DNA of 64,000 bases from Denitratisoma oestradiolicum (lineage in GTDB: Bacteria > Pseudomonadota > Gammaproteobacteria > Burkholderiales > Rhodocyclaceae), in contig NZ_LR778301.1 of the NCBI RefSeq assembly GCF_902813185.1, forward strand, positions 2,108,001 through 2,172,000, written 5' to 3'. This document shows, piece after piece, positions 1 to 62,087 of the stretch. Within the stretch, counting starts at the first letter, position 1. Every line of letters starts with the position of its first letter. Both the position numbers and the translations under genes were made by a program. The notes beneath the pieces were generated by a model. The model did no database searches. It was not told the DNA's origin and worked only from the letters and a program-made list of their open reading frames with translations.

Positions 1-527
<527 letters not shown>

Positions 528-540
528 GCCTGGCTCCCAA

Positions 541-567
541 CGGGGCAGTCGCAGACTGACTGCCCCG
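541..567 (+). terminator. Hairpin after thiolase gene
   Basis: A perfect 10-bp stem (541-550 with 558-567) and 7-base loop lies 14 bases after the thiolase stop. The T-tract is poor, so it may be a weak terminator or an mRNA-stabilising hairpin between two co-transcribed genes. Confidence 0.5.
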
Positions 568-607
568 CTTCAAAATCAATTCATGCAATATTCCAAAGGA
601 GATGCAA

Positions 608-1510
608 ATGGGTGATTTGTCCGGTAAGGTCGCCATCGTCACCGGCGCCGGCCGTGGTCTGGGTCGCGAGGAAGCCATCCAGCTGGCCCGCCAGGGTGCC
701 CGGGTAGTGATCAACGACATCAACCTGCCCGCCGCCGTCGAGGCCTCCCACGCCACCGTGGCCGATATCAAGGCCCTGGGCGGCGAAGCCATCGCTGTCT
801 TCGGCGACTGCGCCGACAGCAACGATTCCGACACCCTGTTCAAGACCGCGCTGGAAACCTTCGGCGATGTGAACATCGTGGTGAACAACGCCGGCTTCTG
901 CCGCGACAAGACCATCTTCGCCATGAGCGACGACGAGTTCGACTCCGTGGTGCGCGTGCATCTGCGCGGCCACTTCGTGAACATGCGCAACGCCACCAAG
1001 TACTGGCGCGAAAAGGCCAAGGCCGGTCCGGTCTATGGCCGCCTGGTGAGCACCGCCTCCGAGTCCATGCTCTACGGCACCCCGGGTCAGCCCAACTACG
1101 CCGCCGCCAAGGCCGGCATCGTCGCCATGACCATGGGCGCCGCCCAGCTGATGATCAAGTACGGCATCACCGCCAACGTGATCATGCCTCGGGCCCGTAC
1201 CGACATGACCGCTGCAGCGCCTTCGGCCCCGATGTTCGCCGCGCCGGAAAAAGGTTTCGATGTCTTCAACCCCGAGAACGTCGCTCCGTTGGTGGGCTAT
1301 CTGGCCTCCCCGGAGTCCGGCCACATCTCCGGTGAAGTGTTCGTGGTCTGGGGCGGCCAGGTCACCGTGGTGCAGCGTCCGACCCTGGGCACCAGCTTCA
1401 ACAGCTCCAATGGCGGCAAGTGGGAACTGGACGACATGCACAAGGTCATGTCCACCTACTTCAACGAGTCCCACAAGACGGTGGTGGACGGCTACACCAT
1501 GCCGGTCTGA
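608..1510 (+). CDS. Short-chain dehydrogenase/reductase (SDR), steroid/3-hydroxyacyl-CoA type
   Basis: Classical SDR of 300 aa: cofactor loop TGAGRGLG at residues 12-19, NNAG at 93-96, and active-site Tyr164 and Lys168 in YAAAK with Ser151 or Ser153 upstream. It would oxidise or reduce a hydroxyl group with NAD(P), most likely a 3-hydroxyacyl-CoA or a ring hydroxyl (inference from the thiolase before it). I chose the ATG at 608 because AAAGGAG at 595-601 sits six bases before it; the in-frame ATG at 602 touches the ribosome site. The protein has about 50 residues beyond the usual 250-aa SDR core, resembling the SDR part of multifunctional beta-oxidation enzymes. Two terminators follow. Confidence 0.85.
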   Translation: MGDLSGKVAIVTGAGRGLGREEAIQLARQGARVVINDINLPAAVEASHATVADIKALGGEAIAVFGDCADSNDSDTLFKTALETFGDVNIVVNNAGFCRDKTIFAMSDDEFDSVVRVHLRGHFVNMRNATKYWREKAKAGPVYGRLVSTASESMLYGTPGQPNYAAAKAGIVAMTMGAAQLMIKYGITANVIMPRARTDMTAAAPSAPMFAAPEKGFDVFNPENVAPLVGYLASPESGHISGEVFVVWGGQVTVVQRPTLGTSFNSSNGGKWELDDMHKVMSTYFNESHKTVVDGYTMPV

Positions 1511-1523
1511 TGGCATGAGAAAA

Positions 1524-1545
1524 GCCCGCCGGAAACCTGGCGGGC
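1524..1545. terminator. Hairpin after SDR gene
   Basis: GCCCGCC at 1524-1530 pairs with GGCGGGC at 1539-1545. It lies 14 bases after the SDR stop and precedes a second, stronger terminator. Confidence 0.55.
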
Positions 1546-1551
1546 CTTCAG

Positions 1552-1586
1552 AAAAAACGCCGACCCTCAGGTTGGCGTTTTTTTTT
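1552..1586. terminator. Strong bidirectional terminator between convergent operons
   Basis: A 14-bp stem (1552-1565 with 1570-1583, one G-T pair) and a four-base loop is flanked by an A-run on the left and a run of nine T on the right. It can terminate the thiolase-SDR transcript on the plus strand and the acyl-CoA ligase transcript on the minus strand. Confidence 0.85.
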
Positions 1587-1604
1587 GCGGCTGTCGTACC
1601 TGAG

Positions 1605-3296
1605 TCAGCGGTTTCCGGCAACCTCCGCCTTCAGCGCCTGCTTCAGCACCTTGCCACTGGCGTTGCGGGGCAGGGTCTCGTCGCGGATCGAGACGTGCTT
1701 GGGCACTTTGAAGCCGGCCAGATGGGCGGCCACGTGCTGACGCACGGCCTCCGCATCGAGGCTGACGCCAGCCTCGGGTACGATGGCGACAGCCAGGGCC
1801 TCACCCATTTCCGTATCGGGCACGGCGAAGGCCGCCACCTCGGCCACGCCGGGCAGGTGGTGGATGCAGGACTCCACTTCCAGGGTGGAGATCTTCTCCC
1901 CCCCCCGATTGACGATGTCCTTGATGCGGTCGACGATGAAGACGAAGTCTTCCTCATCCACATAACCCACGTCACCCGAATGGAACCAGCCGTCCCGCAG
2001 CGCCGCCTCGGTGGCGGTGGGGTTGCGCCAGTAGCCCATCATCACCGTCACGCCACGCACGCAGAGTTCGCCGGTGCTGCCCTGGGGCAACACGTTGCCC
2101 AGGTCGTCCTCGGCATGGATCTCGACGATGGGCGAAACGATGCCGCTGGAGCGGGGCTTGTAGGCGAAGGCTTCGGCGGTGAAGGAGGATGCCGTCGAAT
2201 TGGTCTCGGTCAGGCCATAGCCGGTACCGGGCAGGGACTTGGGGAACTTGCTCAGGGTCATGTCCAGCAGGCCCTGGGGTGTCGCGGAACCGCCGAAGCC
2301 CACGGCCGCGATGCTGGACATGTCGGCCTGGTCGAAACGGGGCGAGCTGAACAGCTGCTGCATCATCGCCGGTGAGCCGTTGAGCTGGGTCAGGCGTTCC
2401 TGCTCGATCAGGTCGATGGCCTGGTCCACGTCCCACTTGTACATGATGACGATCTTGCGCCCTGCCTTCAGTGCCCCCAGAAACAGCGCCTGGAGGCCGC
2501 TGACATGAAACAGGGGCACCGACAGCAGAGCCGCCGGCGCGAAGCCGGAAGCCATCATGGCCTGGATGCGCTCGGGGCTAGCCATGGCTGTGATGGCTGA
2601 GACGAAGTCGATGTTCATCAGGGCCTGGCAAAAGGCCCGATGGTTGGACAACACACCCTTGGCCCCGCTGGTGGTACCGGAGGTGTACATGATCATCACC
2701 GGATCGTCGCCGACGATGTCCACCTGGGGTGCCGCCAGGGGTGTTGCGGTCAGCGGGTCGTAGCGGCTTACCCGGGGTGCCTCGGCGGGCGTATCGGTAA
2801 CGATGGCCTCGATCCCCAGGCCCTCCAGGTCGCCAGTCACATGGGCCAGGCGCTCCGGATCGCAAAACAGTACCTTGGGTTCGGCATTGCCCAGGTTCTG
2901 CACCAGTTCTTCCCGCTGGCTCCAGCTGTTGAGGGGAACGGCGATGGCACCGAGGGAGACGATGGCGACGAAGGCCGCCATCCACTCGGGGCGGTTGCGC
3001 ATGGCGATGGCCACCCGGTCGCCCTTCTTCACGCCGTAGCGGCTGGCCAGCTGGGCCGCCAGGGTGTCGGCGTGGCGGAAATACTCGTTGAAGCTCCAGC
3101 GCTGCCCCTGATAGACCAGGAAAGTCCTGTCGCCGAACTGGCGACCCTGGTTGATCAGGTGCATCACGTTCTCGGGGGCATTCTTGAAGACCTGATAGGT
3201 ATGGCCTCCCAGTTCCCGGTCCGCCAGTTCGAAGGGGGCTCCCGGGGCCGTCACCTGGGCCCGGGCTGCATTCAGTTTCTCGACGATATCGTTCAT
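1605..3296 (-). CDS. Acyl-CoA ligase (AMP-binding, FadD family)
   Basis: Adenylate-forming enzyme of 563 aa, the usual length for FadD ligases. Phosphate loop YTSGTTSGAKG lies at residues 204-214, followed by GYGLTET, the acyl-adenylate Asp in GDVGYVDEEDF, the hinge DRIKDIVNRGGEKIS, and the C-terminal catalytic Lys in PRNASGKVLK. It makes an acyl-CoA from a carboxylic acid, ATP and CoA in the cytoplasm. It is the last gene of the ten-gene minus-strand operon, 18 bases after an acyl-CoA dehydrogenase. The context suggests a steroid side-chain or ring-fragment acid as substrate, which the sequence alone cannot prove. Confidence 0.85.
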   Translation of the reverse strand: MNDIVEKLNAARAQVTAPGAPFELADRELGGHTYQVFKNAPENVMHLINQGRQFGDRTFLVYQGQRWSFNEYFRHADTLAAQLASRYGVKKGDRVAIAMRNRPEWMAAFVAIVSLGAIAVPLNSWSQREELVQNLGNAEPKVLFCDPERLAHVTGDLEGLGIEAIVTDTPAEAPRVSRYDPLTATPLAAPQVDIVGDDPVMIMYTSGTTSGAKGVLSNHRAFCQALMNIDFVSAITAMASPERIQAMMASGFAPAALLSVPLFHVSGLQALFLGALKAGRKIVIMYKWDVDQAIDLIEQERLTQLNGSPAMMQQLFSSPRFDQADMSSIAAVGFGGSATPQGLLDMTLSKFPKSLPGTGYGLTETNSTASSFTAEAFAYKPRSSGIVSPIVEIHAEDDLGNVLPQGSTGELCVRGVTVMMGYWRNPTATEAALRDGWFHSGDVGYVDEEDFVFIVDRIKDIVNRGGEKISTLEVESCIHHLPGVAEVAAFAVPDTEMGEALAVAIVPEAGVSLDAEAVRQHVAAHLAGFKVPKHVSIRDETLPRNASGKVLKQALKAEVAGNR

Positions 3297-3314
3297 GGCT
3301 TTACCTGGCGAAGA

Positions 3315-4454
3315 TCAGAAACCACGCAGGGTGGCGTAGCGGTCCCGATGGAAGGAGGCATCGCCGAACAGCTGCTGGGAGACCCGGGCCCGCTTGAGGT
3401 AGAGGCCCACGTCCAGCTCGTCGGTCATGCCGATGCCGCCGTGCATCTGCACCGCCTCGTTGCTGATCAGTTCCAAAGTGTCGGAAACCTTGGCCTTGGT
3501 CAGGGAGGCCAGGGTCGCCAGTTGCGGCGAGTTCTCGTCGATGGCGGTGAGGGCCGCCAACACGGCGCTGCGGCTCATCTCCAGGGCGATGTACATTTGC
3601 GCGGCCCGGTGCTGCAGGGCCTGGAAGGAACCGATGGGCACGTCGAACTGCACCCGCTCCTTCAGATAGGCAACGGTGGTCTCCAGCAACCAGTCGGCTG
3701 CGCCCAGCATCTCGGCGGTTTGCAGGATGCGGGCCCGATCCAGCACGCTGTCCAACAGCGCGGCCCCCTGCCCTACCGTACCGATCACGGCGCTGGCGGA
3801 CACGGCCACGTTGCTGAAGCGGATCGAGGCAATATTGCGGCTATCCACCAGGGTGCGGCGCAGGCGCTCGACGCCGGGTGCCTTGGCATCCACCAGGAAC
3901 AGGGTCAGGCCTTCAGCATCGCCCGGCTGGCCGGCGGTGCGGGCGACCACCACCAGTTGGTCGGCGATGGTGCCGTCCACCACGTAGTGCTTTTCGCCGT
4001 TCAGCACATAACCGTCACCATTGGCCTGGGCCGTGAGGGCGATGGCCTTGGGATCGTGGCGCGGCTTTTCGTCCACCGCCAGGGCGAACAGGGTTTCGCC
4101 ACCGATGATCCTGGGCAACCACTGTTCCTTCTGGGCATCGCTGCCGCCCAGCAGGATGGCGCTGCCCCCCAGGGCCACGGTGCCGAACAGGGGGGTGGCG
4201 GCCAGGGTCCGGCCGGCCTGTTCGAACACGGCGCCCAGGCCCTTGTAGCCGAAGTCCAGGCCGCCGTAGGCCTCGGGAAAGACGATGGCCGTCCAGCCCA
4301 GTTCCACCATCTGTTGCCACACGGGGGGCTGGTAGGCCAAGGGGTCTTGGTTGTCGCGCAGCTTGCGCAAGGCGGCGACGGGCGCGTGCTCCGCAAAGAA
4401 GCCCCGAGCGGTTTCCGCCAACATTTCCTGTTCGGAATCAAACAACATTCCCAT
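3315..4454 (-). CDS. Acyl-CoA dehydrogenase (smaller, heteromer-type subunit)
   Basis: 379-aa acyl-CoA dehydrogenase (ACAD), with the C-terminal motif QMHGGIGMTDELDVGLYLKR and RVQFDVPIGSFQALQHR at the FAD interface. No obvious catalytic Glu is seen in the usual helix. It begins at ATG 4454, with AAGGA seven bases before. Steroid ACADs of actinobacteria work as alpha2beta2 heteromers in which each subunit supplies half of the FAD site. This gene follows another ACAD (4628-5812), so the two may form such a pair (inference). It would introduce a 2,3-double bond into a steroid acyl-CoA and pass electrons to EtfAB. Confidence 0.85.
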   Translation of the reverse strand: MGMLFDSEQEMLAETARGFFAEHAPVAALRKLRDNQDPLAYQPPVWQQMVELGWTAIVFPEAYGGLDFGYKGLGAVFEQAGRTLAATPLFGTVALGGSAILLGGSDAQKEQWLPRIIGGETLFALAVDEKPRHDPKAIALTAQANGDGYVLNGEKHYVVDGTIADQLVVVARTAGQPGDAEGLTLFLVDAKAPGVERLRRTLVDSRNIASIRFSNVAVSASAVIGTVGQGAALLDSVLDRARILQTAEMLGAADWLLETTVAYLKERVQFDVPIGSFQALQHRAAQMYIALEMSRSAVLAALTAIDENSPQLATLASLTKAKVSDTLELISNEAVQMHGGIGMTDELDVGLYLKRARVSQQLFGDASFHRDRYATLRGF

Positions 4455-4478
4455 GATTTTTCCTTAAGGTGAAAAATG

Positions 4479-4616
4479 AGCTTTCCCGCCGGGCCGTCCC
4501 AAGGGAAAGCGGAGAGCGGCGCCAGCCGCAACCCCTCGGTGCCGCCACGGAGCGCCCCCAAACATCGAGCACAGCGAGCCGTATCGAACCCCCCGGAGGG
4601 GGGCGAAGGGGGGCGA
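4479..4616. repeat. GC-rich intergenic repeat element, copy A
   Basis: This noncoding stretch between two ACAD genes shares blocks with 52150-52298 and 61930-62078: AGCTTTCCCGCCG at the left, GGGAAAGCGG, a CGAGCxxAGCGAGCCG block, and a closing run of Cs and Gs with GGAGGGGGGCGAAGGGG. The other two copies lie between a DUF35 and a thiolase-fold gene. The ordered blocks at unrelated places mark a dispersed element, probably transcribed as a folded spacer within operons. Confidence 0.7.
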
Positions 4617-4627
4617 TCCTCATCCTT

Positions 4628-5812
4628 TTATTCCGGCAGGCCGAGCACACGCTTGGCGATGATGTTGAGTTGCACTTCAGAACTGCCCCCCGCGATGGAG
4701 TGGGCCTTGTCGTTGAGCCACTGCTTGGTGGCTTCCAGCTCGTCCTTGGCGAAGCCCTCGCTCTCCCAGCCCAGGCCCTGCAGCCCCAGGGCCGCCACCA
4801 TGGTCTCGGAGCCCTTCTTCAGGGTGTCGGACAATTGATATTTCATGGTGGCACTGACGTTGGTCACGTCCTTGCCGGACTTCATCATCTCGACGATGCG
4901 CTGCTGGGTCAGGCCCTGCACGTGGGTTTCGATTTCCAGGCCAGCCACCTTGTCCCGCATCACGGCGCTGCTGATACGGCCATTGGCGTCCCCCAGGGCC
5001 TTCTTCACCACGGGCACCAGGCTGGGTCCGGGCAGATTCAGCTCGGCGAACTTGGACATGGCCTTGCGCTCGAAGGTGAGCAGACGCTTGGCCACGCCCC
5101 AGCCGCCGTTCAGGGGGCCGACCATGTTCTTCACCGGCACCCGCACGTTGTCGAAGAACACCTGGCAGAAGCTGGACTTGCCGCTGATCAGGTCGATGGG
5201 CCGCACGGTGACCCCCGACGCCTTCATGTCGATCAGCACCATGGTGATGCCCTGCTGCTTGGTGCCCTCGTTGCTGGTGCGGACCAGGGCGTACATCTGG
5301 TCGGCGAGGAAGGCGTAGGAGGTCCATATCTTGGAGCCGTTGACGATGAAATCGTCGCCCTCGCGCACGGCGGACATCTTCAGGGACGCCAGGTCGGAAC
5401 CGGCATTGGGTTCGGAAAAGCCCTGGCACCAGCCGATCTCGCCACGCCCCGTGCCGGGAAGGAAGGTACTTTTCTGCTCGTCGGTGCCGAATTCCAGCAG
5501 TACCGGGCCGATCATCCAGATGCCCAGGCTGACCAGGGGCGGACGGCAGCCCGCCCGGGTCAGTTCCACCTCGACGATACGGGTGCGGGCCGAATCCAGG
5601 CCGGCGCCACCGAAGGCCGTGGGCCAATCAGGTGCCAGCCAGCCCTTGTCGCGCATGCGCTCGTACCACAGGCGGGCATCCTCGCTCTTGAATTCGATCT
5701 TGCTGGACGCCATGGGAATTTCGCCTTCCTGGGGCGGCGTGCGCAGGGACGGCGGGTAGTTGGCTTCGAGCCAGGCACGCACTTCAGCGCGGAAAGTGTC
5801 GAGTTCGTTCAA
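4628..5812 (-). CDS. Acyl-CoA dehydrogenase (larger subunit type)
   Basis: 394-aa ACAD. It contains WCQGFSEPNAGSDLASL (flavin/substrate region), NGSKIWTSYA, and a C-terminal GGSSEVQLNIIAKRVLGLP in which the GGSSE part is a common ACAD ending. The reading frame stays open upstream to 6244, but that part is antisense to the metallo-hydrolase gene. I chose the TTG at 5812, preceded by GAGGA seven bases upstream, which gives a normal N-terminus (NELDTFRAEVRAWLEANYP). It is transcribed just before the smaller ACAD at 3315-4454, with repeat element A between them. Likely substrate: a steroid side-chain or ring acyl-CoA. Confidence 0.85.
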   Translation of the reverse strand: MNELDTFRAEVRAWLEANYPPSLRTPPQEGEIPMASSKIEFKSEDARLWYERMRDKGWLAPDWPTAFGGAGLDSARTRIVEVELTRAGCRPPLVSLGIWMIGPVLLEFGTDEQKSTFLPGTGRGEIGWCQGFSEPNAGSDLASLKMSAVREGDDFIVNGSKIWTSYAFLADQMYALVRTSNEGTKQQGITMVLIDMKASGVTVRPIDLISGKSSFCQVFFDNVRVPVKNMVGPLNGGWGVAKRLLTFERKAMSKFAELNLPGPSLVPVVKKALGDANGRISSAVMRDKVAGLEIETHVQGLTQQRIVEMMKSGKDVTNVSATMKYQLSDTLKKGSETMVAALGLQGLGWESEGFAKDELEATKQWLNDKAHSIAGGSSEVQLNIIAKRVLGLPE

Positions 5813-5861
5813 TTTATCGTCCTCTGTTTTTGATTCAAATCTGTGTCGCCGGGACCGGGGC

Positions 5862-6893
5862 TTACGATGCCTGTACCCGATACTGATAGCTGCCGTCCTG
5901 CTGTAACTCCCGCTGTAACCGCCCTTGGCCGCAAAGATAGGCCAGATGGGCCAGGGTCTCGGCGATGGCCAGGATGCTGTCCATGGGGCCGCTGCGATGG
6001 GTGAAAAAGCGGTTTGCCAGGCCGTAGGCGGTATCCGGTTGCTCGGCGCAGAGGGTCTGCATCTTGTCGAGCACGCCCTGATGATGCTGGCGCAGTTCCT
6101 CAGCCCGGGCCTTGAGGCCATGGAAGGGCAGCTCATGGGCCGGCAGCACCAGGGTTTCCTCGGGCAGGCGGCCAATGTGCTCAAGGGAGACGAACCAGTC
6201 CTCCAAAGGGCTTGCCTCGGGCTCGAAGGGCAGCACGCCCACATTGGGGCTGATGCGGGCCAGCAATTGGTCGCCGCTCAGCAACACCCCCAGATCCGGG
6301 CAATAGAGGGAGGCATGCTCGGGCGAGTGCCCTTCCCCCCCCCACACCTGCCAGACATGGTCGCCGATGGTCAGGGTCCCGCCGTCCCGCAGGCGCTGGT
6401 AGGCCCGGGGCATGGGCGACTCGGTAAAAGCCTGGCCGAAGCGATTGAGGGCATCGATCAGATTGAGCAGTTGCTCCCCGGGCAAACCCGCCCGGATAAA
6501 GAACTCGCGAAACTCCCAGGACTCTCCCGAGAAGCCCCCGTCGAAAATCCGCATCGCGAAATATTCGGCCCGGCTCATGTAGAGGGGCACCCGCAATTTC
6601 TCGGTGAACCATCCAGCCAGGCCGCAGTGGTCCCCATGGTGATGGGTGCAGATGATGCCGGTGACGGGGCCGTCCAGGGCGGGCAGTATCCGCTCCCAGA
6701 TATCCCGGGTCTCCTGGGTGTTGATGCCGGTATCGACGATGCGCCAACCGGCGCCATCCCGCACCAGGTAGAGGTTGATGTGATTCAGGGCCAGGGGTAG
6801 CGGCATGCGCAGCCACTTGATCTGGCCCGGCACCACATCGATCAGCTCACCATTGGTGGCCGGCGCCTGGAAGGGAAAGGAAAGTGTCGTCAT
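5862..6893 (-). CDS. MBL-fold metallo-hydrolase
   Basis: 343-aa metallo-beta-lactamase fold protein with the zinc motif THHHGDH at residues 83-89 (HxHxDH), followed by GGEGHSPEHASLYCPDLGVLLSGDQLL, which holds the next His and the metal-bridging Asp. I took ATG 6893 (MTTLSFPF); the frame is open to 6941 but that part reads unlike the family. Such proteins hydrolyse thioesters, lactones or other esters. Within a CoA-based steroid operon a thioesterase or ring-lactone hydrolase role is plausible, but this is inference. It lies between an ACAD and an acyl-CoA ligase with short gaps, so it is probably co-transcribed. Confidence 0.8.
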   Translation of the reverse strand: MTTLSFPFQAPATNGELIDVVPGQIKWLRMPLPLALNHINLYLVRDGAGWRIVDTGINTQETRDIWERILPALDGPVTGIICTHHHGDHCGLAGWFTEKLRVPLYMSRAEYFAMRIFDGGFSGESWEFREFFIRAGLPGEQLLNLIDALNRFGQAFTESPMPRAYQRLRDGGTLTIGDHVWQVWGGEGHSPEHASLYCPDLGVLLSGDQLLARISPNVGVLPFEPEASPLEDWFVSLEHIGRLPEETLVLPAHELPFHGLKARAEELRQHHQGVLDKMQTLCAEQPDTAYGLANRFFTHRSGPMDSILAIAETLAHLAYLCGQGRLQRELQQDGSYQYRVQAS

Positions 6894-6927
6894 GGGGGCT
6901 ACCCGTCTAAGTCTGCAATTGCGTGGA

Positions 6928-8736
6928 TCAAGGCGCCACAAAGGGCTTCATGCCCAGTGCCGCCAGAGCACTCTCGCTGTAAGGCACATAGTTCCTTGCC
7001 TTGTCGTCCCGTACCCAGAGCGGATCGCTGAATTTTTTTGGATCGTAGCCCTGGCGTTGCAGGTCCACCCGCCGCAGCTTGAAGGTGGAGGTCATGTCGG
7101 CCTGGGGGCTCACCCGCACGAAATAGGGTACTGCATAGCCGGGCAGGTTGGCCGCCGCCATATCGTAGAAGACCTTGGGATCGAAGTCGCGGCCCGGGGC
7201 CATCACCACCGAGGCCATGCCGGCGCGGCCTTCGTGGTCAGGCACAGTCACACCGTAGATCGTCAATATTTCCAGCCCCGGATAATTGGCGAAGGCATCG
7301 GCCACTTCGCTGGTGGACACATTCTCGCTCTTCCAGCGGAAGGTGTCGCCAATGCGGTCCACGAAGTAGAAGTAACCCTCGTCGTCGTAGCGGGCCAGAT
7401 CGCCCGAGGAAAAGTAGGAATCCCCTTCCACGAATACATTGCGCAGGATCTTCTTTTCCGTGGCTTCCGGCGAGGTATAGCCTTCGAAGCGCCCGCCGCC
7501 GATATCGGGATGATTGACGATGAAGGCGACGATTTCCCCGATCTCACCCGGTTGGCAGAGGATCATGTGGCCGTTCTCGTCCTTCGGATGGCTCTCGGTC
7601 TCGACGTCGTAGCGGACCAGGCGGATATTGGTCTTTTCCCAGTAAGGGATGCGGCCGATGGAGCCCTTGAAGTTATCGACGTTCTGGATGTTGCCGTTGG
7701 ACTCGGTGGCCCCCCAGCCTTCATAAACCTGCTCGATGCCGAAGCGATTGACGAAGCGGTCCCACACCTCGGCCGAGAGGCCGGCGCCCATCACCTTGCG
7801 CAAGGTGTGGTTGCGGTCCTCGGGGGTTTCCGGCTGGTTCAGCAGATAGCGGCAGATCTCGCCCACGTACTGGGCGAAGGTGATCCTGTACTTGCGCACG
7901 TCAGCCCAGAATTCCCGCAGGCTGAACTTGCGCCGCAGCACCAGGGCGGCCCGGGCCGACAGGGCCGTGGAGGTCAGGGACATCAACGCCGCGCCATGGT
8001 ACAGGGGCAGGAAACAGTAGAACACGTCGTCCTTGCCGGTAGCCGTGGTGACCTGCATCACGTCGCCGGTGGTGAGGACCCGCATGTGGCTGTTGAGCAC
8101 GGCCTTGGGCAGGCCGGTGGTGCCGGACGTGTAGATGTGGATGAAGGGGGTCTCGCCGACCACCCCGACCCGTACCGCCTTGTCCAGGTTGTCCGCGGGC
8201 TGGCCGGCGGCCAGGGCATCGACATCGGCCCCGCACATGGCGCGCAGGGCCTCGCTGGCGGGCTTCTCGGCATCCCCCAGGCGCCACAGGGGCAAGCTGC
8301 CCCGGACTTCCGGGCAGTCGAAATGCACCAGGCATTCCTCGCCCACCACCGCCGCCTTTGCGCTGGTGATCGAGAGACAGTGGGCCAGGGCCTTGCCGGT
8401 GATGTTGGTGTTGATCAGGGAAGCGGTGACGCCCAGCTTGGCCATGGCCCAGAGGATGAAAAAGAACTCCGGCCGGTTCTCCACCGCCATGGCACAGGCA
8501 TCGCCGCACTGGAGCCCGAGTTTTTGCAGGGCGCGGGCGTACTGGTTGGCCTTGGCATTCACCTCGGCATAGGTGTAACGGCGGTCGCCGTAATAAAGGA
8601 AGATGCGATCGGGAGAGTCGGCAGCGCACTCTTCGATGCGATCCGCCATCGTGTAGGTCTGCTTGGGCTTGTGCCGACCGGCAATCTCGTTACGACGGTC
8701 CAGCTTTATCTGTGTCTCTTCCCGCGATACCACCAT
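6928..8736 (-). CDS. Very-long-chain acyl-CoA synthetase type ligase (FATP/FadD6-like)
   Basis: 602-aa AMP-binding ligase. It has IYTSGTTGLPKAVLNS near residue 200, YEGWGATESNGNIQN for adenine binding, and GDLARYDDEGYFYFVDRIGDTFRWKSENVST, the hinge typical of the FATP/VLACS branch (DTFRWKGENV). Bile-acid and cholesterol side-chain CoA ligases belong to this branch (FadD17/FadD19 in mycobacteria). GGAG lies eight bases before ATG 8736. Within this igr-like operon it is the best candidate for activating the steroid side-chain carboxylate; the substrate is inferred. Confidence 0.85.
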   Translation of the reverse strand: MVVSREETQIKLDRRNEIAGRHKPKQTYTMADRIEECAADSPDRIFLYYGDRRYTYAEVNAKANQYARALQKLGLQCGDACAMAVENRPEFFFILWAMAKLGVTASLINTNITGKALAHCLSITSAKAAVVGEECLVHFDCPEVRGSLPLWRLGDAEKPASEALRAMCGADVDALAAGQPADNLDKAVRVGVVGETPFIHIYTSGTTGLPKAVLNSHMRVLTTGDVMQVTTATGKDDVFYCFLPLYHGAALMSLTSTALSARAALVLRRKFSLREFWADVRKYRITFAQYVGEICRYLLNQPETPEDRNHTLRKVMGAGLSAEVWDRFVNRFGIEQVYEGWGATESNGNIQNVDNFKGSIGRIPYWEKTNIRLVRYDVETESHPKDENGHMILCQPGEIGEIVAFIVNHPDIGGGRFEGYTSPEATEKKILRNVFVEGDSYFSSGDLARYDDEGYFYFVDRIGDTFRWKSENVSTSEVADAFANYPGLEILTIYGVTVPDHEGRAGMASVVMAPGRDFDPKVFYDMAAANLPGYAVPYFVRVSPQADMTSTFKLRRVDLQRQGYDPKKFSDPLWVRDDKARNYVPYSESALAALGMKPFVAP

Positions 8737-8788
8737 TTATCGGTCTCCAGTAAAACAGCCAACACAATCCCCCAGCACCAATGCAGGA

Positions 8789-8818
8789 GCCGGAGTTCGG
8801 GGAAACCCCAACTCCGGC
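8789..8818 (-). terminator. Hairpin between ACAD and ligase genes
   Basis: GCCGGAGTT (8789-8797) pairs with AACTCCGGC (8810-8818), and the loop itself pairs GGGG with CCCC. It lies in the 146-base gap after the 8883-10061 gene. There is no T-tract, so partial termination or transcript processing is more likely than a full stop. Confidence 0.45.
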
Positions 8819-8882
8819 CTCATGGCGACTTATATCACCACGGGGTCATACTGCGCGGGGAGATATCCTCCCCGGTTGTGTA

Positions 8883-10061
8883 TCAGCGATCGGCCCTGGG
8901 CATACCCAGGCCGAACTGGGATGCCATGTCCCGCAGCATCTCGTTCACACCACCTCCGAAGGTGTTGACCAGGGCGCCCCGGTATTCCTCCTCCAGGATG
9001 CCACCCAGCATTTCCGCCTGGCTGCCATGGCGGTACAGGCTCCCCGCGCCGACCACCTCCATCAGCTTGCGATAGACGTCGATGGTGGCCTCGGTGCCGA
9101 ACACCTTGGAAGCGGAAGCTAGGCCCACGTCCATCTTGTCCATGGTCAAGTCAGCAGCCATACGGTAGCTCATCAGCCGCATCGCTTCCACCTGGCGGTA
9201 GCAGTCGGCCAGCCGGCTCGCCACCCAGGGCGTATCGATCGGGCGGTGGCCGTTCTCGTCGGTAGTCCGCGCCCATTCCAGGGTCTTCACAAAATCGCCC
9301 CGGGCCTTGACGCCCATGGCCCCCAGGCCGATGCGTTCGTGGTTCAACTGGGAGGTGATCAGTTTCCAGCCACCATTGACTTGCCCGACCAGCATTTCCG
9401 GCGGCACAAAGATGTTGTCGTAATAGGTGACATTGGTCAGATGGCCCACCGTGTAGATCGGCGTGAAGGAGAAACCGGGGTCCTTGGTATCCACGATCAG
9501 GATCGAGATGCCCTTGTGGCGGGGAAGATCGGGATCGGTACGGCAGGCCAGCCAGATGTAGTCGGCCGCATCCGCGTCGGAGGTGAATATCTTGTTGCCA
9601 TTCACCCGGAAGCCGTCGCCGTCCTTCACCGCCGAGGTCTTCAGGGTCGCCAGGTCGGTGCCGGCGGAGGGCTCCGTATAGCCGATGCTGAAATGGATCT
9701 CCCCGGCCGCCATGCCCGGCAGGAACTTCTTCTTGTGTTCCTCCGAGCCGTGGGTCATCAGGGCCGGACCCACGGTATTGATGGTGACGAAGGGCAGGAT
9801 GGCCCCGGCCAGGAAGGACTCTTCGAAGAAGATCAGCTGTTCCAGGGGCGTGTAGCCCTTGCCGCCGTATTCCTTGGGCCAACCCACCGCCAGCCAGCCG
9901 TCCTTGCCCATCTGGCGCACCTGACGCTTGTATTCCTGGAGCCGGGCCGGGTTCTTGTAGTCATGCAGCAGCGACTTGGCCTCGGGCGTCATCAACCGGG
10001 CGAAATAGGCCCGGATTTCCTGCTTCAGGGCTTCTTGTTCGGGGGACAGGTTTGTGTACAT
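8883..10061 (-). CDS. Acyl-CoA dehydrogenase, ChsE/FadE28-29-like
   Basis: 392-aa ACAD. It shows GYTEPSAGTDLATLKTSAV, NGNKIFTSDADAADYIWLACRTD, and a C-terminal GSQAEMLGGILEEEYRGALVNTFGGG. GAGG lies eight bases before the ATG. It follows the Ltp2-like gene by ten bases. In the M. tuberculosis igr operon, two ACADs (ChsE1/ChsE2) form one heteromeric enzyme that desaturates the 3-oxo-4-pregnene-20-carboxyl-CoA side chain. This gene and the small ACAD at 11684-12796 are the natural candidates for that pair (inference from gene content). Confidence 0.87.
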   Translation of the reverse strand: MYTNLSPEQEALKQEIRAYFARLMTPEAKSLLHDYKNPARLQEYKRQVRQMGKDGWLAVGWPKEYGGKGYTPLEQLIFFEESFLAGAILPFVTINTVGPALMTHGSEEHKKKFLPGMAAGEIHFSIGYTEPSAGTDLATLKTSAVKDGDGFRVNGNKIFTSDADAADYIWLACRTDPDLPRHKGISILIVDTKDPGFSFTPIYTVGHLTNVTYYDNIFVPPEMLVGQVNGGWKLITSQLNHERIGLGAMGVKARGDFVKTLEWARTTDENGHRPIDTPWVASRLADCYRQVEAMRLMSYRMAADLTMDKMDVGLASASKVFGTEATIDVYRKLMEVVGAGSLYRHGSQAEMLGGILEEEYRGALVNTFGGGVNEMLRDMASQFGLGMPRADR

Positions 10062-10071
10062 AGCTAAGACC

Positions 10072-11250
10072 TCATTCGGAGGACAGGATTAAACCGCTGG
10101 TGGGCACGCCGCTGCCGGCGGAGACCACCACATTTTTGACATTGGCCACCGGGTTGACGGAAGTGCCGCGCAACTGGCGCACCCCTTCCGCCACACCGTT
10201 CAAGCCATGGATATAGGCTTCGCCCAGTTGGCCACCGTTGGTGTTGATGGGCAGGCTTCCGCTGCGACTGTGCTCACCGGCCCGGACGAAGTCCTTGGCC
10301 TCGCCCCGCTGGCAGAAGCCGAAGACCTCCAGCTGGGGCAGGATGAAGGGAGAGAAATGATCATAGAGCACCGCCGTCTGGATATCTTCGGGCTTCAGGT
10401 CGGCCATAGCGTAAAGCTGGTCTGCCACCAGGCGCATCTCGGATAGGGCCGTGATGTCCTTGCGGTAGTAGGAGGTCACGCTCTGCTGGTCGTCCGTCAT
10501 ACCCTGGGCCGCGGCAGCGATCAGCACCGGCTTCTGCTTCAGGCTCCGGGCCCGCTCGGCGGAAACCAGCACCACGGCCACGGCACCGTCGGATTCCTGG
10601 CAGCAATCGTAGAGATGCAGAGGTTCGACAATCCAGCGGGAAGCCTGATGCTCTTCCAGAGTCAGGGGCTTGCCGTAGAAAAAGGCCTTGGGGTTGGTGG
10701 CGGCGAAATCCCGGGCCGCCACGGCAACCCGACCGAAATCCTCGCTGGTGACACCGAAGTCGTGCATGTAGCGGCGGGCCGCCATGGCGATCCAGGAAGC
10801 CGGGGATACCAGGCCGTGGGGGATGTACCAGCCGAAATGCACCGACTCGACATTGGGGCTGGCAGGCCAGTCGGCGACGCCGGAGCCAAAGCAGTACCAG
10901 GAACGCTCGTTCATGGCCCGATAGCAGACCACCACCTCGGCGACGCCGCTGTGGATGGCCATGGCCCCATGCAGCAGGGGAGCACAGGCCGCGCCGCCAC
11001 CTTCATGGGTGCGGCTGAAGAACTTCAGGTTCTTGCCGCCCAGCAGGCGGAATATTTCCCGCTCGGGCACATTGTCCATGGTGTAGGTGGACAGACCATC
11101 CACCTCGGCGGGGTCGATGCCCGCATCCGCCAGGGCCGCCAGTACCGCCTCCATGCCCAGGTGCAATTCGGTGCGCCCGGAGTTCTTGGAGAACTCCGTG
11201 GCACCGATGCCTGCGATGGCCACGCGCCGGGAGAGGGGATGTTTGCTCAT
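10072..11250 (-). CDS. ltp2: Ltp2-like thiolase-fold steroid side-chain aldolase
   Basis: 392-aa SCP2-type thiolase-fold protein. It begins RRVAIAGIGATEFSKNSGR. It lacks the thiolase nucleophile context: the region is THEGGGAACAPLLHGAMAI, and the C-terminal CxG is replaced in VVVSAGSGVPTSG. It has NTNGGQLGEAYIHGLNG instead of the GHPxG motif, and the Tyr there fits a lyase of the Ltp2 kind. Ltp2 cleaves 17-hydroxy-3-oxo-4-pregnene-20-carboxyl-CoA to androstenedione and propionyl-CoA, and needs the DUF35 domain of ChsH2. That partner is encoded three genes upstream (12808-13773), which strengthens the call. Confidence 0.8.
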   Translation of the reverse strand: MSKHPLSRRVAIAGIGATEFSKNSGRTELHLGMEAVLAALADAGIDPAEVDGLSTYTMDNVPEREIFRLLGGKNLKFFSRTHEGGGAACAPLLHGAMAIHSGVAEVVVCYRAMNERSWYCFGSGVADWPASPNVESVHFGWYIPHGLVSPASWIAMAARRYMHDFGVTSEDFGRVAVAARDFAATNPKAFFYGKPLTLEEHQASRWIVEPLHLYDCCQESDGAVAVVLVSAERARSLKQKPVLIAAAAQGMTDDQQSVTSYYRKDITALSEMRLVADQLYAMADLKPEDIQTAVLYDHFSPFILPQLEVFGFCQRGEAKDFVRAGEHSRSGSLPINTNGGQLGEAYIHGLNGVAEGVRQLRGTSVNPVANVKNVVVSAGSGVPTSGLILSSE

Positions 11251-11264
11251 CGCTTATCCCATCC

Positions 11265-11687
11265 TCAGTTAGGCAGGGCCAGAACCACGGTGGCCATCAG
11301 GTGGTTGCCGATGGAATTGCGCCCCGTCACATCCAGTTCGAGGGTGCGATCGGCATCACCCTTGGCGGTCACCTTGGCACTCATGGTCATGGTATCCCCG
11401 GGGTAGTTGGGTGCCCCCAGGCGGATGGCCACCTTGCGGAACATTGCCTCCGGACCGGCCCATTCGCCCAGGTAACGCTCCACCAGGCCCCCGGTGGTGA
11501 GGATGTTCATGAAAATGTTGGGGGAACCCAGGGCCCGGGTGGCCTCCAGATCGTGATGCACGTTCTGGTAATCGCGGGTGGCGATGGCGCAGGAAACGAT
11601 CTGCCGCACGGAGATCGGAATATCCAGCGTCGGCAACTCCTCGCCAACGCTCACCGCGTCGAAGCGCCGGGTTTCGGTCCAACTCAT
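11265..11687 (-). CDS. chsH1: MaoC-like hydratase subunit, ChsH1-like
   Basis: 140-aa single hot-dog domain. ATRDYQNVHHDLEATRALG is the hydratase-2 motif with the catalytic Asp/His region, followed by SPNIFMNILTTGGLVERYLGEW. The start at ATG 11687 overlaps the stop of the upstream ACAD by four bases (ATGA), so translation is coupled; the open frame farther upstream is antisense-like shadow. ChsH1 pairs with the MaoC domain of ChsH2 to hydrate the 17(20)-ene of the steroid side-chain CoA ester. The small size, the DUF35-MaoC partner nearby and the Ltp2-like gene next door all agree. Confidence 0.82.
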   Translation of the reverse strand: MSWTETRRFDAVSVGEELPTLDIPISVRQIVSCAIATRDYQNVHHDLEATRALGSPNIFMNILTTGGLVERYLGEWAGPEAMFRKVAIRLGAPNYPGDTMTMSAKVTAKGDADRTLELDVTGRNSIGNHLMATVVLALPN

Positions 11688-12796
11688 AGCTCGACCCCGT
11701 GGGCCTCCGGACTGGCCAGCCATTGCCCCAGAGCGGCCAGTTGGGCCGGCTTGCCGCCAAAGGTCATTTCCAGGGCACGGCTCCAAAGAGTGAAGCGATG
11801 GATCGGGTAACTCAGGTCCACCCCGATGCCGCCATGCATGTGCTGGGCGGCGTGGGTGACGTGATAACCGCAATCGCAGGCCCATACCTTGACCGCGCCG
11901 GCCGCGCCCACCGCATCCAGGCCGGCATCCAGGCGCCAGCACAACTGCCAGAGGGTGGAACGCAGGGACTCCACGTCGATCAGGCAGTCGGCGGTCTTCT
12001 GGGTGATGGCCTGGAAAGAGGCGATGGGACGGCCGAACTGCACCCGCTCTGTCGTATAGGCCACCACCCGGGTCAGCGCTTCCCGCGCCACGCCCAGGTG
12101 CAGCGCGCCCAGACAGGCCACCACCCGGGGCTCCAGCCAGGCCAGGGCTTCCGGTGCCAGGGCCGAATCCGCCGGCAATTCCAGACCGGTAAACGTCAAG
12201 TCCGCCGCCGGCTCGTTGTGGGTCAACATCCCGGCCATCTTGCCGATGCCCGGCAGGGACAGGTCCACCGCGAAGAGGCGCACCCCACCCGCCGTCTGGG
12301 CCGGCAACAGCGCCACGGCGGACTGTTCGGCCAGGGCAACGGCCACCGCCCGGCCCTGCAGGCGCCAGCCGGCCGAGGTCTGCTCGGCCTTCAGGGAGAG
12401 TCCACGACTGGAAATGAGCCCCTCCAGATTCACGCTGGCCAGCTTGGCGCCGCTGACCAGATCAGCCAGCCAAGCCGACTTGGCCCCCGCCGCGCCGAAA
12501 CGGGAGATGGCCACCGCCGCCAGCTGGGTGGACCACAGGGGCACCGGTGCCACGAAGCGGCCCTGCTGCTCCAGGGTCAGCATCAACTCCACCATCCCCA
12601 GGCCCGTGCCGCCATCTTCCTCGGCGACGATCAGGGAAACCAGGCCGGTCTCCTGTAGCTGTTGCCACAGGTCGGCGTTGTAGGCAGCGCCGCTGTTGTC
12701 GTACTTCTGCATCTGGTCGTCGGCGCAATAGTCCGAAAATACGCTGGTCGCCAGATCGGCAATGGCACGCTGCTCTTCGCTGAAAGTGAAATCCAT
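11684..12796 (-). CDS. Small acyl-CoA dehydrogenase, ChsE-type partner subunit
   Basis: 370-aa ACAD. It starts MDFTFSEEQRAIADLATSVF, contains RVQFGRPIASFQAITQKTADCLIDVE (FAD interface) and QHMHGGIGVDLSYPIHRFTLWSR. The central part is alanine/leucine rich and weakly conserved, as in the smaller subunits of heteromeric steroid ACADs. GAGGGAG precedes the ATG. It lies 11 bases after the ChsH2-like gene and overlaps the ChsH1-like gene by four bases. It probably forms an alpha2beta2 enzyme with the ACAD at 8883-10061 (inference). Confidence 0.82.
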   Translation of the reverse strand: MDFTFSEEQRAIADLATSVFSDYCADDQMQKYDNSGAAYNADLWQQLQETGLVSLIVAEEDGGTGLGMVELMLTLEQQGRFVAPVPLWSTQLAAVAISRFGAAGAKSAWLADLVSGAKLASVNLEGLISSRGLSLKAEQTSAGWRLQGRAVAVALAEQSAVALLPAQTAGGVRLFAVDLSLPGIGKMAGMLTHNEPAADLTFTGLELPADSALAPEALAWLEPRVVACLGALHLGVAREALTRVVAYTTERVQFGRPIASFQAITQKTADCLIDVESLRSTLWQLCWRLDAGLDAVGAAGAVKVWACDCGYHVTHAAQHMHGGIGVDLSYPIHRFTLWSRALEMTFGGKPAQLAALGQWLASPEAHGVEL

Positions 12797-12807
12797 CTAT
12801 AGCTCCC

Positions 12808-13773
12808 TCAAATGGGCCGGAACACCGGCACAACCAATTCTTCATCCGTCCGCAGGAACTCCACCTGCACCGGCATACCTATTTGCACTTCGGAATACTT
12901 GATCCCCGCCAGGCCCGCCACCAGGCGGGTGCCCTCCTCCAGTTCCACCAGCAATACCGGGTTGGGGCTTTCGATCCCCGCCACCTGGGGATGATGCATC
13001 ACCACAAAGGAATGAATGATGCCCCGGCCACTGGCCTGGATTGCCTCCCATTTGAAGGAATGGCAATGGGGGCAAGTCGGACCGGGCGGATGGCGCAATT
13101 CGCCGCAAGCGCTGCATTTCTGGATCAGCAGCCTGCCTTCCTTCAGGCCGTCCCAGAAGAACCGGGTGTCCTGGCTGATGCCGGGATGGGGACGACGGGG
13201 CTGGGCTTCGGCCGGCTGCTCCGCTTTGGATTCTGCCTCGTCAGGCACCTGATGGGGCCGATAGACGAAGAGACGGAAGCGCATGGTGCCCACCTTCTCG
13301 CCCTCGGTGGTCATGAAGGTCATCAGATTGGTGACGAAATACCCGGTCCCCAGGGCCGTGCGCTTCAATTCACTGACCGACTCAAGCATGGAGGTGAAGC
13401 ACAGGGACTCCCCCAAGCGCAGGTAGCGGAAATACTCATGCTCCGAATTGACCGCCACATTGACCGGAAAGCCATTGTTGGTCAGGAACTCCACCGCCTC
13501 GTAGGGGTTCACCGTGCTGGAACCGGGGGGCGACTCGCCATTGACGCCGGCCAGGGTCCAGGCCTGCATCATCGTCGGCGGCGCCACCTGTCCGCCATGG
13601 ATGGACTTGGCGGCGAATGCGGGATCGTGATAGAGGATGCTCTTGTTGCCCATGGCCTCGCACCATTGGCGGATCATGGGCTGATTGACCGGATCCCAGG
13701 CATAGACGCGACCATACTCACGGCCCACCATCGCCTTGACGTGGGCTTCGACATCGACATTCGTCACGGACAT
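12808..13773 (-). CDS. chsH2: MaoC-DUF35 fusion protein, ChsH2-like
   Basis: 321-aa two-domain protein. Residues about 1-170 are a MaoC/FAS1-dehydratase-like hot-dog domain. Residues about 195-321 are a DUF35 domain with the zinc ribbon CSACGELRHPPGPTCPHC (Cys-x2-Cys-x10-Cys-x2-Cys), then an OB fold. This architecture is that of ChsH2: the MaoC half hydrates the side-chain enoyl-CoA with ChsH1, and the DUF35 half binds and activates the Ltp2 aldolase. It is the first gene of the operon, preceded by GAGAG eight bases before the ATG and by a 645-base region with candidate promoter and operator sequences. Confidence 0.85.
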   Translation of the reverse strand: MSVTNVDVEAHVKAMVGREYGRVYAWDPVNQPMIRQWCEAMGNKSILYHDPAFAAKSIHGGQVAPPTMMQAWTLAGVNGESPPGSSTVNPYEAVEFLTNNGFPVNVAVNSEHEYFRYLRLGESLCFTSMLESVSELKRTALGTGYFVTNLMTFMTTEGEKVGTMRFRLFVYRPHQVPDEAESKAEQPAEAQPRRPHPGISQDTRFFWDGLKEGRLLIQKCSACGELRHPPGPTCPHCHSFKWEAIQASGRGIIHSFVVMHHPQVAGIESPNPVLLVELEEGTRLVAGLAGIKYSEVQIGMPVQVEFLRTDEELVVPVFRPI

Positions 13774-13883
13774 TTTTGGCTCTCAAATTGATGGATGAAC
13801 ATGGCCCGGATCAAATCGTTCATCCTGGGGCAACGCCGACGGGGAGCCCCCAGACGCCCGACGTCTATTCCAAAACTTGATCG

Positions 13884-13913
13884 AATCTAGCGCACTGGGT
13901 CCTGCCCCGGCAA
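13884..13913 (-). promoter_or_regulatory. Candidate promoter of the igr-like operon
   Basis: On the minus strand, TTGCCG (13908-13913) and TAGATT (13884-13889) are 18 bases apart. The match to sigma70 boxes is only fair, and the start would lie about 100 bases before the ChsH2-like gene. Confidence 0.3.
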
Positions 13914-13935
13914 CTCACATTTGCGCCGCAACGAA

Positions 13936-13948
13936 CATTTGCCAAATG
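13936..13948. promoter_or_regulatory. Perfect palindrome, candidate operator
   Basis: CATTTG-C-CAAATG is a perfect inverted repeat just upstream of the candidate -35 box. GCGCC to the left and GGCGC to the right extend the symmetry loosely. It could bind the regulator of the steroid operon; no such regulator gene is adjacent. Confidence 0.35.
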
Positions 13949-14202
13949 GCGCAATCACCGGCCTGAACAGACAGGTATATCCTTGTTCGTGTTTATATTG
14001 CGTCGCAACAACCAGAATACGGCTCAGGAACGCAATTGGGATGACAGCGCTGATCCGGGAAAAGCGACCCATTCGGTACCAGCGTGATGCCTTACGCTGA
14101 ATGGGGAACCCATATGCTTTTCCTTGCCGGCCCCTGTTTAAGCTTCTCCTGGAATTTCGTCTTCCAGAAGTGAGCCGTTGGGACTGGAGGAGCCAGCCAA
14201 GG

Positions 14203-14338
14203 GTAATCGGCTCCGATCCGGACTACCTCTGGATACTGGCGCGGGACAAGCAGATCCCCGTAACCGGTCGGTCGGGCTCGAAGCCTGGGGGTTGCAGTGG
14301 ATCGCTTGATCTGGGTGGCCCACCTCCGGCCCGATTGA
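14203..14338 (+). pseudogene. Lipocalin (Blc-like) C-terminal remnant with frameshift
   Basis: In one frame the plus strand reads VIGSDPDYLWILARDKQIP (from 14203), which matches the Blc lipocalin signature (DYLWIL.R). From about 14267 the neighbouring frame continues with ARSLGVAVDRLIWVAHLRPD and a stop at 14336-14338, matching the Blc C-terminus. No intact N-terminal half is seen upstream. I read this as the frameshifted, truncated end of an outer-membrane lipocalin gene. Confidence 0.5.
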
Positions 14339-14387
14339 GCCGGAACCGCCCGGTGCTCCGATTCTCGGGTACCGGTTCGGCAATGAC

Positions 14388-14410
14388 GAGGGCCGCCGGG
14401 GGCGGCCCTC
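14388..14410 (-). terminator. Hairpin at the 3' end of hom
   Basis: GAGGGCCGCC (14388-14397) and GGCGGCCCTC (14401-14410) form a perfect 10-bp stem with a three-base loop, nine bases after the hom stop on the minus strand. The T-tract is weak. Confidence 0.6.
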
Positions 14411-14418
14411 AGTTGAAC

Positions 14419-37713: not shown

Positions 37714-37760
37714 GAGAAATCCTCGCAGTCATTGATTGAACTTGCAGGCGGGCGGCCAGC

Positions 37761-51711: not shown

Positions 51712-51726
51712 CGAGGAGGAAAAAGC

Positions 51727-52140: not shown

Positions 52141-52149
52141 AGAAAACAC

Positions 52150-52298: not shown

Positions 52299-52338
52299 GC
52301 TATTTCACGTTAACCGTAAGGTGACAAGGAGAATTCAA

Positions 52339-53532: not shown

Positions 53533-53545
53533 GATGTACCCAGAA

Positions 53546-60681: not shown

Positions 60682-60695
60682 GCCTGAGGAAAATA

Positions 60696-62078: not shown

Positions 62079-62087
62079 GTGTTTTCT

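Follow-up and report, generated by a model that had tools for sequence, protein, structure and literature searches.

A probable steroid side-chain operon of the igr kind in the anaerobic estrogen degrader Denitratisoma oestradiolicum

Why should an anaerobic estrogen degrader carry genes for degrading steroid side chains? PMC8449060 lists D. oestradiolicum with those bacteria that can use only steroids lacking a side chain. The window analysed here (64,000 nucleotides of the D. oestradiolicum genome) contains an operon that resembles the mycobacterial igr operon, and we asked what it is likely to do, what would precede it in the degradation of a steroid, and how it relates to known systems.

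Gene content and layout

An earlier note on this DNA had named ten minus-strand genes between 1605 and 13773 by family, and all frames, domains and structure matches agree with it: the ten open reading frames are intact and carry the expected Pfam and NCBIfam domains. The operon starts with a ChsH2-like protein (12808..13773), which joins a non-catalytic MaoC-type domain to a C-terminal zinc ribbon and OB domain (DUF35), seen both in Pfam (PF13452, PF12172, PF01796) and in the best solved structures, 6ok1_B (ChsH2(DUF35), 147 bits) and 4wnb_A (96 bits). Next come a ChsE1-like small acyl-CoA dehydrogenase (ACAD) subunit of 370 aa in the Scd2B position (11684..12796), whose best solved match is Tcur3481 (226 bits) and in which the Pfam middle domain was not matched, and a ChsH1-like catalytic MaoC subunit (11265..11687; 4wnb_B, 114 bits, and 4w78_B). 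The Ltp2-like retro-aldolase (10072..11250) scores 640 bits with NF005892 (cut-off 469) and 516 bits with 6ok1_A, the runner-up structure reaching 161. A ChsE2-like large ACAD subunit of 392 aa in the Scd2A position (8883..10061; Tcur3483, 403 bits) closes this core. The ChsE1 and ChsE2 labels follow PMC12502768, and the two unlike subunits appear, as judged from sequence, to be of the steroid heterotetramer type. For these five core genes, the family matching proposed in the earlier note leads to steroid proteins, namely ChsH2, ChsH1, Ltp2, Tcur3481 and Tcur3483.

The catalytic motifs are also evident. ChsH1 keeps D-x4-H (RDYQNVH), which we take to be the pattern of the catalytic hydratase subunit, and ChsH2 reads GNKSILYHD at that site. 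The hydratase is therefore predicted to pair two different subunits, of which only ChsH1 has D-x4-H; residue roles are described in PMC11321319. The aldolase contains YDHF and EAYIHG motifs, and YDHF and the second tyrosine align with Tyr294 and Tyr344 of Thermomonospora curvata Ltp2, whose roles are treated in PMC12329534. The window Ltp2 reads YDHF and not YDCY; a YDCY protein sits elsewhere, at L021.

Beyond the core lie an acyl-CoA ligase in the StdA2 position (6928..8736; NF006134, 703 bits, cut-off 625), a putative C3-acid ligase by gene order only, and an MBL-fold hydrolase (5862..6893, adopted start; PF00753, PF21221), which is kept in G001, G002, G028, G087 and G377. A second ACAD pair follows, with a large-type member in the Scd1A position (4628..5812, domain and structure matches) and its partner in the Scd1B position (3315..4454, NCBIfam, Pfam and structure matches). 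The former very probably uses a TTG start at 5812, because the frame upstream of its provisional start is conserved in strain DHT3. The last gene is a StdA1/CasG-like ligase of the steroid-24-oyl-CoA type (1605..3296), whose best NCBIfam match, NF052580, gives 415 bits, below the cut-off of 750. Both ligases score under the cut-offs of the steroid-specific NCBIfam models, the StdA2-position ligase reaching 211 bits with the CasI model, far below 900. The core five genes are separated by 11, -4, 14 and 10 bases, and the gaps beyond them are 146, 34, 49, 173 and 18 bases with the adopted starts at 6893 and 5812; the provisional starts gave 37 and 142 instead of 34 and 49 for the two gaps around the MBL gene.

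Two plus-strand genes converging on the operon had been overlooked in the earlier note. They encode an SDR dehydrogenase (602..1510; NF005862, 351 bits, below the cut-off of 414) and, represented by its 3′ part (1..527, frame 3-527), a FadA5-type steroid 3-ketoacyl-CoA thiolase, the whole gene of which lies at L015:16353-17528 and the whole protein of which scores 605 bits with NF005889 (cut-off 515). An Rfam search of the window gave zero matches, and scanning 1-14500 for promoters and terminators yielded nothing above shuffled sequence.

Proposed route and conservation

We consider it likely, with a probability of roughly 0.85, that these genes form a conserved betaproteobacterial operon with which D. 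oestradiolicum removes the carboxylic side chain of steroids by way of CoA esters. What was observed is the set of genes and their order, the domains and catalytic motifs, the conservation and the purifying selection; the reactions and the substrate are all transferred from relatives. The StdA1/CasG-like ligase would form a steroid-24-oyl-CoA, and the ACAD pair at 3315 and 4628 would desaturate the C5 chain. A hydratase outside the assigned set, followed by the SDR and the FadA5-type thiolase, or alternatively a Sal/DUF35 pair at 3.02 Mb, would then release acetyl-CoA; the genome carries both thiolytic and aldolytic gene sets for C5 release. If a C3 acid forms, the StdA2-position ligase could re-activate it. 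The ChsE1-ChsE2-type ACAD would then desaturate C17-C20, ChsH1-ChsH2 would add water at C17, and Ltp2, docked on the DUF35 of ChsH2, would split off propionyl-CoA, and the remaining 17-ketosteroid would enter the oxygen-free 2,3-seco pathway of ring degradation. As proposed, the route would include zero oxygen-requiring steps, and the MBL protein is without a place in it. Since the operon has genes for both the C5 and the C3 stage of the side chain, steroid acids for which an attack at C25 or C26 is unnecessary can be its substrates.

The ACADs and ligases of ring and side-chain degradation belong to related families, and the IpdE2 model also picks up the ACAD at 3315, at 154 bits, far below the cut-off of 450. 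One could thus suppose that the ten genes act in C/D-ring (HIP-type) β-oxidation during growth on estrogens rather than on the C17 side chain. We regard this as very unlikely: content and order fit a side-chain operon with a mutant-proven core, and to our knowledge ChsH1-ChsH2-Ltp2 with C3-type motifs has no role in ring degradation.

The same ten genes in the same order are found in the other two Denitratisoma genomes examined (G001 and G002) and, outside the family, in G377, so the arrangement is not due to chance. Between D. oestradiolicum and DHT3, dN/dS ranges from 0.086 to 0.189, which indicates purifying selection on each of the ten genes. The Ltp2 of DHT3 is 92% identical to that of the window and the operon flanks are conserved, with the SDR (95%) and the FadA5-type thiolase (97%) both adjoining the operon there. 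The passages of PMC8449060 concerned with D. oestradiolicum report no growth on side-chain steroids, which would suit an operon that is decaying in a bacterium specialised on estrogens, but the ten intact frames, the dN/dS values of 0.09-0.19 and the conservation in DHT3 have already weakened this explanation, and we consider it highly improbable.

The first attack

The earlier note had held that cyp125 alone was missing relative to igr and that only the first, oxygen-dependent attack had been replaced. The operon is indeed without any P450, and cyp125 was not found beside it, but the genome encodes two P450s, and igr lacks the added ligases, ACAD pair and MBL gene. One P450 gene lies near another steroid cluster (L018). 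Its product was considered as a CYP125, but its closest match is P450terp (295 bits), followed by a chain called CYP125MRCA (266 bits), then others and the native CYP125 chains (about 175 bits); by sequence, it might still have a CYP125-like role. The second (L042) matched no CYP125-named NCBIfam model, if that collection has one.

A rival reading, in line with the earlier note, makes the operon the end game of an oxygen-free cholesterol degradation begun by S25DH-type molybdenum hydroxylases. It is true that S25DH-like alpha, beta and gamma subunits and a Nitrate_red_del-family chaperone share the window (33061-38417), and that the molybdenum hydroxylase alphas of the genome include one of S25DH1-4 type and two of S26DH type, beside two DH8-like ones and a more distant one (40-43% to the DH8 group). 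However, the window alpha is nearer to the DH8-like outlier of G028 (64%) than to its S25DH1-4 group (only 39-42%), and the best homologue of the likely 25-HSK in D. oestradiolicum reaches only 28-31%, compared with two 51% matches in DHT3. The query came from G028 and owes its putative identity as the 25-HSK to those two matches, as published. With S25DH- and S26DH-type alphas present and a 25-HSK homologue above 31% absent, the published oxygen-free cholesterol attack is incomplete in D. oestradiolicum by known genes. Moreover, neither KshA nor S25DH-like genes always accompany the operon, which is found both with and without each of them: G002 has it with zero S25DH-like alphas at E 1e-100, and in the Pseudomonas genomes eight of the ten genes coexist with KshA. 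The S25DH-rich Sterolibacterium-like genomes, for their part, have a different hydratase-aldolase cassette in the operon. We therefore find a role in oxygen-free cholesterol degradation doubtful. The same distribution supports an end game shared between aerobic and oxygen-independent degraders, and a review had already described the side-chain phase as largely homologous between aerobic and anaerobic bile-acid degradation (PMC8399759). The claim that only the first attack has been replaced is too simple, as the Sterolibacterium-like cassette itself differs.

Possible cassette exchange and known systems

The Sterolibacterium-like G028 has all ten counterparts together on one strand, and seven were seen in G087, where the C5 ACADs and C5 ligase are without match in the 2.8 kb remaining before the contig end. 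In these operons chsH2-chsH1-ltp2 is contiguous and of another lineage, with 36, 42 and 51% identity to the window (tblastn values, as for all operon identities), whereas the neighbouring ChsE-type ACADs of G028 show 61-67%. Denitratisoma operons carry a YDHF aldolase and Sterolibacterium-like operons a YDAF one, without the oxyanion-hole histidine; D. oestradiolicum and DHT3 both have close kin of the YDAF cassette (72-82%) at sites distant from the operon. A rule of one motif for one clade failed, for aldolases that fall outside the Sterolibacterium-type clade also have YDAF (L022, L074, L077), and a 39-42% relative of G092 has YDHF. A third form is a fused MaoC-DUF35-MaoC protein, encoded after a DH8-like molybdenum hydroxylase and before an ltp2. 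In the DHT3 version DUF35 is absent between the two MaoC domains, and an ltp2 was not found in the surrounding 20 kb. Among 369 genomes of the class, three matches to the fused protein were found at E 1e-50, including G000; the two others cover only the first 320-340 residues, and the correlation of DUF35 with the aldolase therefore rests on two genomes. P0145 and P0146 are likewise without DUF35. An empty site was sought for a low-GC island at 1.19 Mb, but the DHT3 stretch after metH is different and rearranged and offers no clean one.

Taken jointly, the proposals that chsH2-chsH1-ltp2 is an exchangeable cassette, that DUF35 holds the aldolase and a hydratase stopping at the alcohol can be kept, and that D. 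oestradiolicum degrades steroid acids without oxygen, an ability so far unrecognised, are tentative, with slightly less than even chances. The apparent cassette exchange between relatives is the most interesting remainder; together with the joint lack of DUF35 and aldolase in DHT3, it offers a natural test of domain roles and of the tuning of substrate range. If true, the DHT3 fused hydratase would show in nature that DUF35 holds the aldolase and that an enzyme confined to hydration can be retained.

The operon itself is of an already known kind, the betaproteobacterial C5+C3 side-chain operon, which is larger than igr. Its gene order fits that of Comamonas testosteroni CNB-2 RS06795-06840, compared here through the published table, which names nine of the ten places: RS06795 Shy2, 06800 Scd2B, 06805 small hydratase, 06810 Sal2, 06815 Scd2A, 06820 C3 ligase, 06830 Scd1A, 06835 Scd1B and 06840 C5 ligase (PMC8399759). 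RS06825 is absent from the table, and from the locus numbering we would guess that it is the counterpart of the MBL gene. In C. testosteroni TA441, disruption mutants prove the core five genes (ORF40-44), so that a betaproteobacterial counterpart of igr is already published with mutants (PMC12502768). C. testosteroni differs in being an aerobic bile-acid degrader that uses Sal/Shy for the C5 step, whereas the D. oestradiolicum operon is flanked by the FadA5-type thiolase and SDR. Shy/Sal likewise pairs a MaoC-DUF35 hydratase with a thiolase-fold aldolase, but is described in PMC11321319 and PMC12329534 as homomeric, C5-specific and YDCY; the window copy is YDHF and, by sequence, apparently heteromeric.

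As the earlier note maintained, the protein set and pairings of M. tuberculosis igr recur here in a betaproteobacterium. The five activities correspond, the pairings are heteromeric and a FadA5-type thiolase lies nearby. The igr order is chsE1, chsE2, chsH2, chsH1, ltp2, and the window operon has another order, is without cyp125 and adds two ligases, a second ACAD pair and the MBL gene. In the tree, M. tuberculosis Ltp2 groups with proteobacterial rows, apart from T. curvata, the sole actinobacterial row. New are the different version that relatives carry in one part of the operon and the occurrence of a mutant-proven kind of side-chain operon in an anaerobic degrader of estrogens to which the literature ascribes growth on side-chain-free steroids only; this last opposition makes a simple growth test decisive.

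Composition and distribution of the operon

The ten minus-strand genes at 1605-13773 described in the earlier note were recovered with the same frames. The identities proposed for ChsH2, ChsH1, Ltp2 and the acyl-CoA dehydrogenases (ACADs) were also borne out by domain and family searches and by comparison with solved structures, the latter covering all genes except those for the MBL hydrolase and the two ligases. The best solved relatives of the two core ACADs are the T. curvata pair Tcur3481/Tcur3483, and the small and large proteins are ChsE1-like and ChsE2-like, respectively, following the usage in PMC12502768. The remaining five genes were assigned by domain and family searches to a ligase (6928), the MBL hydrolase, a second ACAD pair (4628 and 3315) and a StdA1/CasG-like ligase (1605). 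Both YDHF and the second Tyr are present in Ltp2, fitting the motif expectation. The hydratase motif pattern D-x4-H is found in ChsH1 and is absent from ChsH2; a His-to-Tyr change in ChsH2 is described in PMC11321319. Between the window and strain DHT3 (G001, identity inferred), dN/dS of the ten genes ranges from 0.086 to 0.189.

Ltp2 matches at E 1e-60 were found in 9 of 150 relatives (the genome of the window, G000, counted in), and neighborhoods were examined for six of the nine, leaving out G045, G092 and G141 with their 38-42% matches. G000, DHT3 and a further Denitratisoma genome (G002) share all ten genes in one common order. The core five (chsH2, chsH1, ltp2 and the ChsE1- and ChsE2-like ACADs) are present in G004, which is 83% complete. 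Among the Sterolibacterium-like genomes, G028 has counterparts of all ten with the core reordered, and seven counterparts were seen in G087. At E 1e-110, five of 369 genomes of the class match (G000 counted in), and three of the other four were examined, leaving out G314: G377, from another family, keeps all ten genes in order, G492 has the core five differently arranged with a 34% ligase, and G397 does not. A scan of named genomes gave six loci, one from the same record as G002 (L009) and five from Pseudomonas/Stutzerimonas with 8 of 10 operon genes, the MBL and 6928 ligase genes being missing.

Two types of chsH2-chsH1-ltp2 cassette and related loci

The ChsE-type ACADs of G028 share higher identity with those of the window (67 and 61%) than do those of Pseudomonas locus L010 (59 and 50%). 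The relation is reversed for the chsH2-chsH1-ltp2 cassette, as a cassette exchange would produce: identities in G028 versus L010 are 51 versus 71% for Ltp2, 42 versus 54% for ChsH1 and 36 versus 55% for ChsH2, and the C5 genes do not discriminate (51 versus 54% for 4628, 56 versus 54% for 3315 and 54 versus 50% for 1605). Identities of 72, 75 and 82% link the G028 cassette to that of L017 in G000, and the same three values are found with L071 in DHT3; neither locus has an operon ACAD in its 20 kb, and still closer relatives are found in protein databases. In a 34-row aldolase tree, G028, G087, L017 and L071 form one supported clade, which excludes the aldolases of the window, of Pseudomonas and Comamonas, and of T. 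curvata; support for the fork uniting the YDHF rows stops at 92/93, and the branching order is open in several places. The operon occurs with a YDAF-type hydratase-aldolase cassette at L079 and L154 in G028 and at L082 and L155 in G087.

Among the best 120 relatives of the window-type aldolase, 119 carry YDHF and one YVHF, and all of the best 120 relatives of the G028-type aldolase carry YDAF, both lists comprising nearest matches only. According to PMC12329534, the YDHF His of T. curvata Ltp2 is an oxyanion-hole residue, and substituting it carried a penalty of about 14-fold. YDAF is also found outside the G028-type clade (L022, L074 and L077), and thus may be the older motif state.

In L018 (G000:C1:3460000-3479999), the gamma-beta-alpha genes of a DH8-like molybdenum hydroxylase precede one for a fused steroid hydratase, MaoC-DUF35-MaoC, and an ltp2 (60%) comes next. 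The fusion is not rare, since database proteins P0121-P0144 (59-96% identical, 462-487 aa) have FAS1_DH, zinc-ribbon and OB domains. The DHT3 counterpart (L159; P0147, 359 aa) has two MaoC domains without DUF35, which P0145 and P0146 also lack, and no ltp2 match lies in the 20 kb of L159.

A 45% GC island at L016:7026-17630 (G000:C1 about 1.193-1.204 Mb) carries chsH2-chsH1-ltp2-ligase, with identities to the window of 59, 63, 80 and 56%, along with genes for two SDRs, two TetR proteins and a TonB receptor. The island is flanked by metH and metK, and RACo, B12-binding and MtmB-like genes are close by, so that its surroundings look like the estrogen-methylation (emt) cluster; it is absent from the corresponding place in DHT3. 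In the window, 50226-53540 and 60688-64000 form an inverted repeat with perfect stretches of 2094 and 1195 bases, which carries a DUF35-type and a thiolase-like gene and extends to the window end; the roughly 7.1 kb enclosed include a mycofactocin-OYE/BaiCD-like enzyme gene (54266-56254, below cut-offs). Two genes, at L022:4197-5336 and 43510-44607 of the window, have the common protein start MSGPLHTQLCEKLGIE.

Relation to the initial attack

KshA_C was found in G002 and in 5 of 5 Pseudomonas/Stutzerimonas genomes, and in none of G000, G001, G004, G028 and G087 among the genomes searched. S25DH-like alpha subunits at E 1e-100 number 6 in G000, 5 in G001, 8 in G028 and 7 in G087, with none in G002 or G004. 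Since the operon is found with and without either, its end game is bound to neither kind of attack, and the earlier suggestion that it is common to aerobic and oxygen-independent degraders holds on this distribution. The eight alphas of G028 group as four, three and one, the grouping published for Sterolibacterium denitrificans (PMC6016249, PMC7411048 and PMC8449060).

Genes for S25DH/ethylbenzene-dehydrogenase-like alpha, beta and gamma subunits and a Nitrate_red_del-family chaperone lie at 33061-38417 (minus strand), and this alpha is 64% identical to the DH8-like outlier of G028. Two P450 genes (L018:1520-2857 and L042) are present in G000, a genome without a KshA_C match.

Predicted substrates and known systems

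A FadA5-type thiolase scores above its curated cut-off (605 versus 515), and together with an SDR it points toward the operon in both G000 and DHT3, the DHT3 copies being 97% (thiolase) and 95% (SDR) identical, whereas in G002 their place is taken by two genes in line with the operon, one Sal-like with YDCY and one of DUF35 type. A YDCY Sal-like aldolase and a DUF35 gene at L021:8285-9909 (G000:C1 about 3.024 Mb), with a ligase and two ACADs, are a possible aldolytic C5 set. The ACAD at L022:6057-7244 is 76% identical to 4628. Compared with the likely 25-hydroxysteroid kinase (25-HSK) of G028, two DHT3 proteins match at 51%, and no match exceeds 31% in G000 or 29% in G002. The lack of a close homolog in G000 agrees with PMC8449060, the relevant part of which restricts D. 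oestradiolicum to side-chain-free steroids, without 25-HSK. Taken with the purifying dN/dS and the FadA5-type thiolase and SDR, it leads us to predict that the substrates served by the operon would be steroid acids and not cholesterol.

Within the papers covered by the literature search, no account of the operon from Denitratisoma came up. The anaerobic route is stated to proceed by C26 oxidation and then beta-oxidation (PMC6208644, PMC11061730), and side-chain phases with and without oxygen are described as largely homologous (PMC8399759). The gene order of C. testosteroni CNB-2 is identical in the table of PMC8399759, from which RS06825 is missing. In C. testosteroni TA441, ChsE1E2, ChsH1H2 and Ltp2 were assigned by disruption, and the set had been hypothesized to be the igr counterpart (PMC12502768). 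Both the operon order and the igr-counterpart idea are already known from C. testosteroni.
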